Source: Acidilobaceae archaeon
Lineage (GTDB): Archaea > Thermoproteota > Thermoprotei_A > Sulfolobales > Acidilobaceae
DNA: 64,000 nt
Assembly (NCBI GenBank): GCA_025058835.1
Contig: JANXEI010000002.1
Location: 372,001 to 436,000, forward strand
Reading direction: 5' to 3'
The position numbers were made by a program, and so were the translations under genes. The notes below the pieces were generated by a model. That model was not told the DNA's origin. It was given only the letters and a program-made list of their open reading frames with translations, and did no database searches. Shown here piece by piece: positions 24,942-26,995 of the stretch. Within the stretch, counting starts at the first letter, position 1; each line of letters opens with the position of its first letter.

Positions 24942-25343
24942 ATGGTGACCCTCGATCCTCTGGCCAACGCTCTCTCGACCATTAAGAACTCTGAGGCTAG
25001 GGGGAAGGGCGAGGCGATCATATCTCCCTCCTCCAAGCTCGTGGCGCAAGTGCTAGCAGTGATGAAGAGGGAGGGCTACATAGGGGACTTTGAGTACGTG
25101 GACGACGGCAGGTGGGGCAAGTTCAGGGTTCAGCTGCTCGGGAGGATCAACGATTGCGGAGCTGTGAAGCCCCGCATGTCGGTGAAGTACAGAGAGCTCG
25201 TGAAGCTGCCCGAGCACATGAGGAAGTATCTGGCGAGCAGGGACATAGGCATCCTCATCCTATCCACAGATAAGGGAGTTATGACGCACCTGGAAGCTAT
25301 AGAGAAGAAGACGGGAGGAATCCTCATAGCCTACGTCTACTGA
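24942..25343 (+). CDS. rps8: Ribosomal protein uS8
   Basis: A 133-residue small-subunit protein binding the central domain of 16S rRNA. It has DPLANALSTIKNSEARGKGE and the C-terminal STDKGVMTHLEAIEKKTGGILIAYVY. Start is ATG at 24942. This is the last gene of the operon here; uL6, eL32, eL19 and the rest of the usual spc-like cluster are not downstream. Confidence 0.97.
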   Translation: MVTLDPLANALSTIKNSEARGKGEAIISPSSKLVAQVLAVMKREGYIGDFEYVDDGRWGKFRVQLLGRINDCGAVKPRMSVKYRELVKLPEHMRKYLASRDIGILILSTDKGVMTHLEAIEKKTGGILIAYVY

Positions 25344-25366
25344 TATATAAACTTTTCTTTCATCAG
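25344..25366 (+). terminator. T-rich terminator after rps8
   Basis: Directly after the stop the sequence reads TATATAAACTTTTCTTTC. Archaeal polymerases terminate at such T-rich stretches without a hairpin. The call rests on composition and place at the operon end. The next 45 bases up to the palindrome hold nothing I can assign. Confidence 0.5.
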
Positions 25367-25411
25367 ACCCAGGTTAACACCTTATTAACCCTGGCGAACC
25401 TAAGTAAGGGT

Positions 25412-25693
25412 TGGCGGACGCGCTGCGCAGGACATCTGCGCAGGCGCGTTGCGCCCTGCCTGAGGTGGGAGTGGAAAGAGAGGCCCAGGCTATGGGCGCA
25501 GCAAAGCCATGGGGTCCAGGGCTCGAGGCCATGCCCCCGAGGGCGACCCCCGAGGGATGGAAGGCCCCGAGCCTTGAGCTCCATGGCTCTGCTGCACTCA
25601 TAACTTGTGTCTCTTTTTCCACTTCCACTTCACGGGGCCCCGAGGTCAGGGCGCAACGCGTTTCATGAAGTGCCCTGCGCAGCGCGTCCGCCA
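25412..25693. repeat. 282-bp imperfect palindrome (long inverted repeat)
   Basis: The outer 20 bp are perfect inverted repeats (25412-25431 against 25674-25693). Further in, 14 bp (25445-25458 against 25647-25660) are perfect; GTGGAAAgAGAG at 25471-25482 pairs with CTCTTTTTCCAC at 25611-25622; GCAGCAAAGCCATGG (25498-25512) pairs with 25581-25595 with one mismatch; GGGCTCGAGGCC (25519-25530) pairs with 25563-25573. The centre (25531-25560) carries the 10-mer CCCCCGAGGG twice (25534-25543 and 25547-25556). A transcript from either strand would form a rod of about 115 bp with bulges. It lies between the convergent rps8 and ion transporter genes, ending 7 bp from the transporter stop. No flanking target duplication is visible. 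Both arms translate to related peptides (ADALRR...RCAL...), so the arms may be diverged inverted copies of one segment. Function unknown. Confidence 0.9.
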
Positions 25694-25699
25694 CTTCTC

Positions 25700-26995
25700 T
25701 CACCAGAACTGCATGACCAGCAGCGATATCACGAAGTGGACCGTTAGTGAAACCAGGGTGAAGGGCACGGTGATCTTCATCCAATCCCTCCAGCTAGTTC
25801 TCCCCCTCTCTTTCTCTGCCAGCAGCAGGGACAGGTAGAGGGCCGGAGCACCGGTAATGGTAGCGTTGCTCCCCAAAGTCCCTGCCCAGACTATGGCCCA
25901 GTAGAAAGGCCAGGGATCTAGCGAGAAGGCCTGAGCAACCTCCTTCACAGTCACCAGGGCTACCAGTATGACCGCGTCGTGCTCCACAAAAGAGGAGAGG
26001 GCTGCCGTGAGCCAATACACCGCGCCGAAGGAGAGGGTAGGCTCTGCGAGAAGGGACGAATAGATGAGGTCAGAGAAGCTGTCTATCACGCCGCCCTTCT
26101 TTAGCCCTCCCACAAGGCTGAAGAGAGTCGCATAGAATATGAAGACCCTCCACTCCATGTCCCTCAGGACCTCTTCGAAGGAGGGGACCTCCCTCTTCCC
26201 ATACGTCCTTATGACTTCGAGGAGGGCTGCAACGCCTATTCCGACGGAGACTGCAATGGCACCTAGCTCTACCCCCAGCAGAGGCCTGAGCGAGGCGAGG
26301 AGGACGAAGGCTGCGAAGCCGCCTATGGCAAGGGAGGCAGTGAGCTTGTCAAAGGCCTTCGGCCTCTCCACATCTATGTCCACCTGCCGGCCAGCGCCGC
26401 CGAACCAGGGCCTGTAGAATATGGCTAACGTTATGAGGAAGGAGAGGGTTAGGAGGAAGAGGGTGCCCGGCGTGTTACGGAACCATATGAAGTCGAGGAA
26501 CTCTGCGCCAGCCACGCTGTGAAGCAGCTGAGGCGGTAGGTCGCCTAGGAGGAGCCCCGTGCCCATGTAGTTTGCCGCGAGCCCCACTATCATTGATGCC
26601 GTGAGAGGATCCTTGTTCACCGTCTTTGCCGCCTTTACGGCAAGGCCCCCGAAGAGAAGGATCACGAGAACGTTGTCGACGAAGAGCGTGGTGAACGAAG
26701 CTATCAGGGCAAGGGAGAGGAGAAACGCTGCGTAGGAGTGGGTTCTCCTCGAGACCTCATAAACTATGTATTCGGGCAGCTGGGACTTGGAGAGGTAGCC
26801 TGAGAGGGTCCACATGCCCAGAAGGATCATCATGACGTTCCAGTCTATTGCCTTGAAGGCATCGACGAAGGAGTAGCTGGCGGAGAGCAGGATCATGACT
26901 ATGAGCCCCGCAAAGGCCACGAGCGACCTTTCCATGGGGAGGAAGATGATGCCCAGTATTGTTAAGAGGAACACTACTAGAGCCGGAGTGTCCAC
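25700..26995 (-). CDS. Ion transporter superfamily permease (ArsB/NhaD/CitM-like)
   Basis: A 431-residue membrane protein with 11-12 helices in two homologous halves, as in the IT superfamily (ArsB, NhaD, SLC13/DASS). Recognisable features: TLFVDNVLVILLFGGLAV near residue 105, the ANYMGTGLLLGDLPPQ hairpin near 145, and in the second half FVEHDAVILVALVTV (about 345) and WAGTLGSNATITGAPAL (about 375), the repeated ion/substrate loop. It could carry Na+/H+, a dicarboxylate or an oxyanion; sequence does not decide. The start is GTG at 26995. It resembles the second transporter at 53151-54428, so the window has two paralogs. The palindrome follows its stop. Confidence 0.85.
   Translation of the reverse strand: MDTPALVVFLLTILGIIFLPMERSLVAFAGLIVMILLSASYSFVDAFKAIDWNVMMILLGMWTLSGYLSKSQLPEYIVYEVSRRTHSYAAFLLSLALIASFTTLFVDNVLVILLFGGLAVKAAKTVNKDPLTASMIVGLAANYMGTGLLLGDLPPQLLHSVAGAEFLDFIWFRNTPGTLFLLTLSFLITLAIFYRPWFGGAGRQVDIDVERPKAFDKLTASLAIGGFAAFVLLASLRPLLGVELGAIAVSVGIGVAALLEVIRTYGKREVPSFEEVLRDMEWRVFIFYATLFSLVGGLKKGGVIDSFSDLIYSSLLAEPTLSFGAVYWLTAALSSFVEHDAVILVALVTVKEVAQAFSLDPWPFYWAIVWAGTLGSNATITGAPALYLSLLLAEKERGRTSWRDWMKITVPFTLVSLTVHFVISLLVMQFW

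Follow-up and report, generated by a model that had tools for sequence, protein, structure and literature searches.

The locus and its surroundings

An inverted repeat of 282 bp occupies positions 25412-25693 of the window, the whole 64-kb stretch of DNA that was analysed. It is flanked by rpsH and by a transporter gene (Table 1). The elements described in an earlier note on this DNA were recovered: the outermost 20 bases are perfectly complementary, the arms contain a perfect 14-mer (CGCGTTGCGCCCTG / CAGGGCGCAACGCG), and a CCCCCGAGGG repeat is located at the centre, which forms the tip. Aligned without gaps, the outer 47 nt of the arms show 81% complementarity. The 282-bp palindrome folds to -212.6 kcal/mol, 15-19 standard deviations beyond shuffled sequences. 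With 10-nt flanks, the RNA fold reaches -216.1 kcal/mol, compared with -131 ± 5.7 kcal/mol for 100 dinucleotide shuffles (z -15), none of which was as good. In a GC-corrected scan of the 64 kb in 637 segments of 300 nt, the segment at 25401 gave the most extreme fold (robust z -9.0), and the next independent site reached a robust z of -3.2. The predicted rod-shaped transcript is about 283 nt long, with both ends paired.

The ribosomal protein gene run ends at rpsH throughout the genus, and the rod occupies that spot (window 24942-25700); in several relatives from other genera, an L6-sized ORF directly follows rpsH. The position between convergent genes, also reported in the earlier note, holds for the window (G000) and for G003, G004, and G005. 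It is not part of the feature itself, since in two congeners, G001 and G002, the downstream transporter is co-directional, i.e., opposite to its orientation in the window. The transporter was located beside the rod at L018 2337-3399, L019 1084-2144, L020 2299-3297, and L022 2301-3386, and its reversal represents a local inversion that did not displace the rod. Because the neighbours vary between genera, a cis role of the rod for rpsH or the transporter is unlikely.

Table 1. Features of the rod locus and its neighbours in the window.
Feature	Position	Strand	Observation
Upstream neighbour rpsH (ribosomal protein S8)	24942..25343	+	PF00410
Promoter-like box GGTTAACACCTTATTAAC (BRE/TATA type)	25372..25389	+	31 nt before rod base
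Whole rod, probable RNA gene	25411..25693	+	All six congeners match the covariance model; z about -15 to -19
P1, 5' strand	25412..25435	+	Helices 1-2 of alignment A1; 12/21 pairs changed on both sides
Internal loop, 5' strand, self-palindrome CTGCGCAG	25436..25443	+	Palindrome of at least 8 nt in 12/12 members with changed letters; self-duplex -13.5 kcal/mol
P2, 5' strand	25444..25461	+	Helix 3; 11/20 pairs changed on both sides
P3, 5' strand, fast-changing long helix	25462..25519 (approximate)	+	Both arms unlike sister species G003, paired in both
Tip, helix with internal loops and CCCGAGGGCGACCCCCGAGGG hairpin	25520..25577 (approximate)	+	Conserved against G003
P3, 3' strand	25578..25631 (approximate)	+	Same comparison as P3, 5' strand
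Pb hairpin ACGGGGCCCCG on 3' strand, self-palindromic	25632..25642	+	ACCGGGCCCGG in most relatives; position invariant
P2, 3' strand	25643..25661	+	Pair-change comparison as P2, 5' strand
Internal loop, 3' strand, self-palindrome TTCATGAA	25662..25669	+	Palindrome of at least 8 nt in 9/12 members; centre CG/AT/TA/CTAG etc.; self-duplex -7.0 kcal/mol
P1, 3' strand	25670..25693	+	Pair-change comparison as P1, 5' strand
Downstream neighbour, CitMHS/ArsB-type transporter	25700..26995	-	PF03600

Known RNA families and reading frames

At gathering score, Rfam 15 (4227 families) gave no match at the rod locus, its one match in the window being a tRNA elsewhere, and no match at eight loci carrying homologues. 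At E 10, only spurious hairpin matches were obtained, mostly to animal microRNAs and far below thresholds. The earlier view that the palindrome is neither SRP RNA nor RNase P RNA was borne out: the genome's single match to archaeal SRP RNA (RF01857) is located at G000:C11:148077-148383 (111 bits) and that to archaeal RNase P RNA (RF00373) at G000:C11:361044-361356 (146 bits), both on a contig other than that of the rod. Assignment to the OLE, GOLLD, or ROOL family proper was rejected, as no sequence or structure model matched. The related peptides that the earlier note read in both arms are a consequence of the palindrome and show no conservation. None of the frames stays open across all 12 homologues, whose lengths differ by non-multiples of three; a peptide-coding reading was consequently discarded.

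Homologues in related archaea

The same single-copy rod, 272-386 nt long, is present as 12 full copies in 12 archaeal genomes belonging to five genera (g1, g2, g6, g8, and g9) of one family. Because homologous rods exist in 12 genomes, the palindrome is not an assembly join of inverted reads. Partial copies were found in g12: the copy in G025 (L060) is short, and that in G016 is cut by a contig end, contig C35 starting inside it (L080 1-90). Most of the genomes compared are fragmented MAGs, and assemblers can break or collapse long palindromes, so that incomplete copies are to be expected; real shortening may also have occurred.

A blastn search of 60 relatives matched only the sister species G003, at the orthologous site. 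Between G003 and G000, conservation covers the outer 50 bp, the internal loop, the 3' bulge, and the tip; the middle helix differs on both arms yet is still paired. The promoter and the loop rules of the rod gene are conserved and most of its helix sequence has been replaced; ordinary sequence searches miss the gene for this reason, and the other homologues are hidden by helix turnover. Different routes were used to reach them. All six congeners (g1) carry one rod directly after rpsH, four others having been found by reading the DNA 3' of that gene. A motif from the 3' module of the rod occurs exactly once in each of the six congeners and in none of 208 other genomes of the order. The covariance model R1, built from the six congeners, recovered a rod in G013, which belongs to another genus and carries it at a different locus (E 2.7e-14), and matched G006 with 42 bits. 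The Pb hairpin pattern led to G010, G012, G023, and G006, as well as to the short and cut copies in G025 and G016, and the fumarase locus led to the rod of G019. The rod follows rpsH in g1 and the fumarase beta gene in g2 and g8, and lies beside an ABC permease in g9 and g12. The search of this and related genomes for more copies, suggested in the earlier note, thus yielded one locus per genome.

With lax filters, R1 revealed no further rods in 34 genomes of the family, and the quality of the cross-genus MAFFT alignment A2 did not suffice for a second covariance model. Several candidates were rejected. Neither the weak R1 matches in G011, G014, G026, G027, and G070 nor a further Pb site in G023 represent rods of the same kind; in G027, G041, G177, and others, the Pb pattern matches ordinary coding or unstructured DNA by chance; and the fumarase locus of Caldisphaera-like genomes (g5) shows a weak fold without the rod anatomy. 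In viral contigs, none of the 77 Pb-pattern and 33 promoter-pattern matches lies inside or before a rod. A scan of the genome contigs for S8 returned distant archaea only. On a crude S8/L5 tree, which uses one or two short proteins, includes one bad row, and provides a hint only, the distribution is patchy, and most genera of the family seem to lack the rod RNA. A different long palindrome with repeated GGGACCCTCTA blocks, unrelated to the rod, was seen in G011 (genus g7) at about L064 1384-1700.

Promoter and predicted transcribed strand

All six congeners and G013 carry a CCTTA(A/T) box that precedes the rod base by 31-33 nt, and the sequence between box and rod has diverged. The 15-mer CACCCTAAYCCCTTA is the form of the box common to g1 (rpsH locus) and g2 (fumarase locus). 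It has five exact copies in 48 genomes of the family, all of them in front of rods. Exact copies placed only before rods, at two loci, argue that the promoter travels with the rod and marks the + strand as the transcribed strand; together with the fixed spacing of the TATA-like box, they point to an RNA gene on that strand. A promoter of its own at a fixed distance places the rod with structured non-coding RNA genes. In G012 and G023, the box is situated about 55 nt upstream of the rod, with a GCAA-looped hairpin after it, and G010 has no close match to the box. In genus g8 (L073 and L062, minus strand), the predicted transcript begins with an extra GCAA-capped hairpin (GGGGACTGC-GCAA-GCAGTCCCC; GGCCGC-GCAA-GCGGCC).

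Base pairing and helix turnover

The covariance check in homologous regions, also proposed earlier, was carried out on an alignment of the six congeners (A1). In this alignment, 51 of 93 pairs have changed on both sides (0/500 shuffles), compared with 7-11 in slid controls, and paired cells make up 90.4%. The alignment reaches a covariation score of 0.534, compared with 0.261 ± 0.018 for shuffled alignments and 0.07-0.13 for slid ones. RNAalifold pair counts contain zero broken pairs by construction and were left out as a test. All 12 rods fold 10-31 standard deviations better than shuffles. Compensatory base changes, as in structured non-coding RNA genes, are therefore present. The arms change together across species and stay complementary, so that the earlier suggestion of an inverted duplication that has since diverged is not supported.

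The strand preference of the pairing depends on the genus. In g2, the numbers of G-U pairs in the sense and antisense folds are 24 and 3 (G019) and 13 and 0 (G006), and the sense folds are more stable by 55 and 41 kcal/mol, respectively. The bias is weak or absent in other genera and reversed in G010 (1/8) and G005 (4/9). Seven members have just 1-6 G-U in 110-133 pairs, and in g1 the folds of the two strands hardly differ in stability.

The compensated helix changes could also stem from arm-to-arm copying at the DNA level, and P3 has this appearance. All-Watson-Crick runs within it comprise 66 consecutive pairs in G004, 51 in G001, and 43 in G003. Between G000 and G003, 32 of 56 four-fold degenerate sites differ, so the wholesale change of P3 is unsurprising in itself. 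The surprising point is the missing intermediates, i.e., G-U pairs and mismatches. The simplest reading would be that one arm was copied from the other during replication. The evidence specific to RNA lies in the promoter, in loops that are direction-specific, and in the G-U bias of g2.

Self-complementary loop strands and the Pb hairpin

P1 and P2 are separated by a symmetric internal loop, each strand of which is self-complementary, the two strands not being complementary to each other. The 5' strand occurs as CTGCGCAG, CCGCGCGG, CCGCTAGCGG, CCACTAGTGG, and TCTGCGCAGA, and the palindromic variants of the 3' strand include TTCATGAA, TTCCGGAA, TTCTAGAA, GCTCCGGAGC, and TGCCTAGGCA. Among the remaining 3' strands, that of G004 (TTCCAGGAA) has an odd centre, and those of G023 (UGGGCCCG, with a wobble pair) and G012 (GGGCCC only) are palindromic over just 6 nt when Watson-Crick pairs alone are counted. 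Palindromes at least 8 nt long occur in all 12 of the 5' strands and in 9 of the 12 3' strands, compared with 2.1% of other 14-nt stretches of the same rods. The members are related, and the fair count is therefore that of distinct variants: five different 5' strands and at least five of seven different 3' strands are palindromic, corresponding at the 2.1% rate to about 4e-9 and 9e-8, post hoc values for loop boundaries that were set by the analyst after viewing the folds. The self-duplex energies range from -13.5 to -26.5 kcal/mol for the 5' strand and from -7.0 to -20.7 kcal/mol for the 3' strand, whereas pairing of the 5' strand with the 3' strand amounts to merely +1.2 to -6.9 kcal/mol.

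The Pb hairpin follows the same rule. Its variants CCGGGCCCGG and CGGGGCCCCG are self-complementary, as is CCGGGCCUGG with a wobble; both a C-G to G-C swap and a G-U form (G019) keep the palindrome. In genus g2 (L099 1257-1556; L135, minus strand), an extra GC-rich stretch, GGGCCCGGGACG, is located on the 3' strand near P1 and may be a fourth self-complementary site.

Proposed mechanism and alternatives

The palindrome is very probably the gene for an undescribed rod-shaped non-coding RNA of several related thermophilic archaea. That the locus is an RNA gene is highly likely, and the earlier suggestion of a stable hairpin RNA is strengthened by the conserved promoter and its spacing, the compensatory changes, the directional loops, and the sense-strand G-U bias in one genus. 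Palindromes that persist while their letters change suggest a clasp between two copies of the RNA. Neighbouring bases at the centre of a palindrome that change in concert cannot be partners within a single chain; hence we infer a homodimer joined through both loop strands and Pb, which is likely if the locus is indeed an RNA gene. Taken as a whole, the reading as a non-coding RNA gene present in one copy, with its own promoter and a product of about 283 nt that homodimerises via the loop strands and Pb, appears probable.

According to this mechanism, transcription would start at the rod base from the rod's own TATA-type promoter. The transcript would fold into P1, the symmetric internal loop, P2, a three-way junction with the Pb hairpin, the long fast-changing P3, and a structured tip. 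Two such molecules would then clasp, each of the two loop strands pairing with its counterpart in the other molecule, and Pb with Pb. The comparison reveals a homologous gene in 12 genomes, with its promoter, paired helices, and palindromes kept through changing letters; transcription and dimerisation are what we infer. As a guess by analogy with bacterial OLE RNA, the dimer might serve as a thermostable scaffold or a protein-binding RNA. More tentatively, the rods could constitute an undescribed archaeal RNA family in which both strands of one internal loop are exchanged, with a self-complementary hairpin as reinforcement, and in which P3 pairing is kept by DNA-level arm copying, so that the sequence turns over wholesale and the shape is preserved.

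The same evidence for an RNA gene applies to a non-coding RNA acting as a monomer, which is rather unlikely. Its loop strands would either form mini-hairpins, producing a protein-binding four-way junction, or remain as an open loop that mimics a promoter bubble in the manner of bacterial 6S RNA, which the rod with its symmetric bubble resembles in overall shape. The 10-nt palindromes could fold into stems of 3 bp closed by loops of 4 nt (-4.2 kcal/mol in the most stable case, mostly 0 to -1.3 kcal/mol). However, the 8-nt versions form no stable hairpin (0.0 kcal/mol), and in almost all variants the putative loop is a palindrome in its own right (CUAG, CCGG, GCGC, CAUG, GGCC), a property that hairpin loops do not need. 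For the 6S variant of this reading, Rfam 6S remained unmatched even at E 10.

The near-perfect arms with their very few G-U pairs, which suggest arm copying at the DNA level, and the near-equal stability of both strands in g1 would also suit a DNA cruciform that serves as the target of a junction- or dimer-binding protein, perhaps in replication or, as the earlier note proposed, in organising the chromosome. This reading is improbable: it leaves unexplained the promoter, which moves with the rod between loci at a fixed spacing, and the wobble pairs, both the heavily wobble-paired sense strand of g2 and the Pb G-U form of G019, which pairs only in RNA. The conserved loops are, moreover, direction-specific.

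A bidirectional terminator or transcription-collision insulator would fit the four congeners with convergent neighbours, but it is very improbable in view of the co-directional gene in the other two, the promoter on the 5' side of the rod, and a length of about 120 bp, far in excess of any terminator need, as the earlier note had also judged. The miniature inverted-repeat element of that note, or a REP-like repeat, would account for the inverted repeat and for sites that differ between genera, but is scarcely credible for exactly one locus per genome, inherited vertically at orthologous sites within clades (rpsH, fumarase, ABC permease), with its promoter carried along and no transposase gene seen beside it.

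Comparison with known structured RNAs

Archaeal SRP RNA (RF01857) resembles the element in being a rod of about 300 nt with paired ends. 6S RNA, known from bacteria, is likewise a rod with a symmetric internal bubble; the difference is that the bubble strands of the archaeal rod are self-palindromic. In the retroviral dimer initiation site, a short self-complementary stretch has been proposed to start RNA dimerisation, but this is a single hairpin loop in a viral genome, whereas the rod would offer three such sites, all within one chromosomal RNA gene.

Homo-oligomers of RNA are rare in nature, and the clearest cases, OLE, GOLLD, and ROOL, are bacterial or phage RNAs (PMC12286853). For OLE and GOLLD, covarying palindromes at adjacent bases have been used as support for intermolecular contacts (PMC12286853). 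Covarying self-complementary candidate contact sites of this kind were found in the rod at both loop strands and at Pb, a feature of such homo-oligomeric structured RNAs. OLE is, similarly, a large structured RNA of extremophiles, and its homodimer, determined by cryo-EM (PMC12286853), has a contact backed by a letter-changing palindrome. OLE differs in being bacterial and multi-helix, with a terminal kissing loop (L9.3) as its symmetric contact, whereas in the rod both internal-loop strands are palindromic. GOLLD and ROOL are RNA-only oligomers with symmetric kissing loops, and the palindromic contact of GOLLD covaries (PMC12286853), as the rod palindromes do; they are much larger, bacterial and phage-borne, and cage-forming. 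A contact via both strands of one internal loop is uncommon. If the dimer is real, the rod would be a compact archaeal homo-oligomer (about 280 nt) with a different kind of contact, for which evolution already supplies natural compensatory variants.
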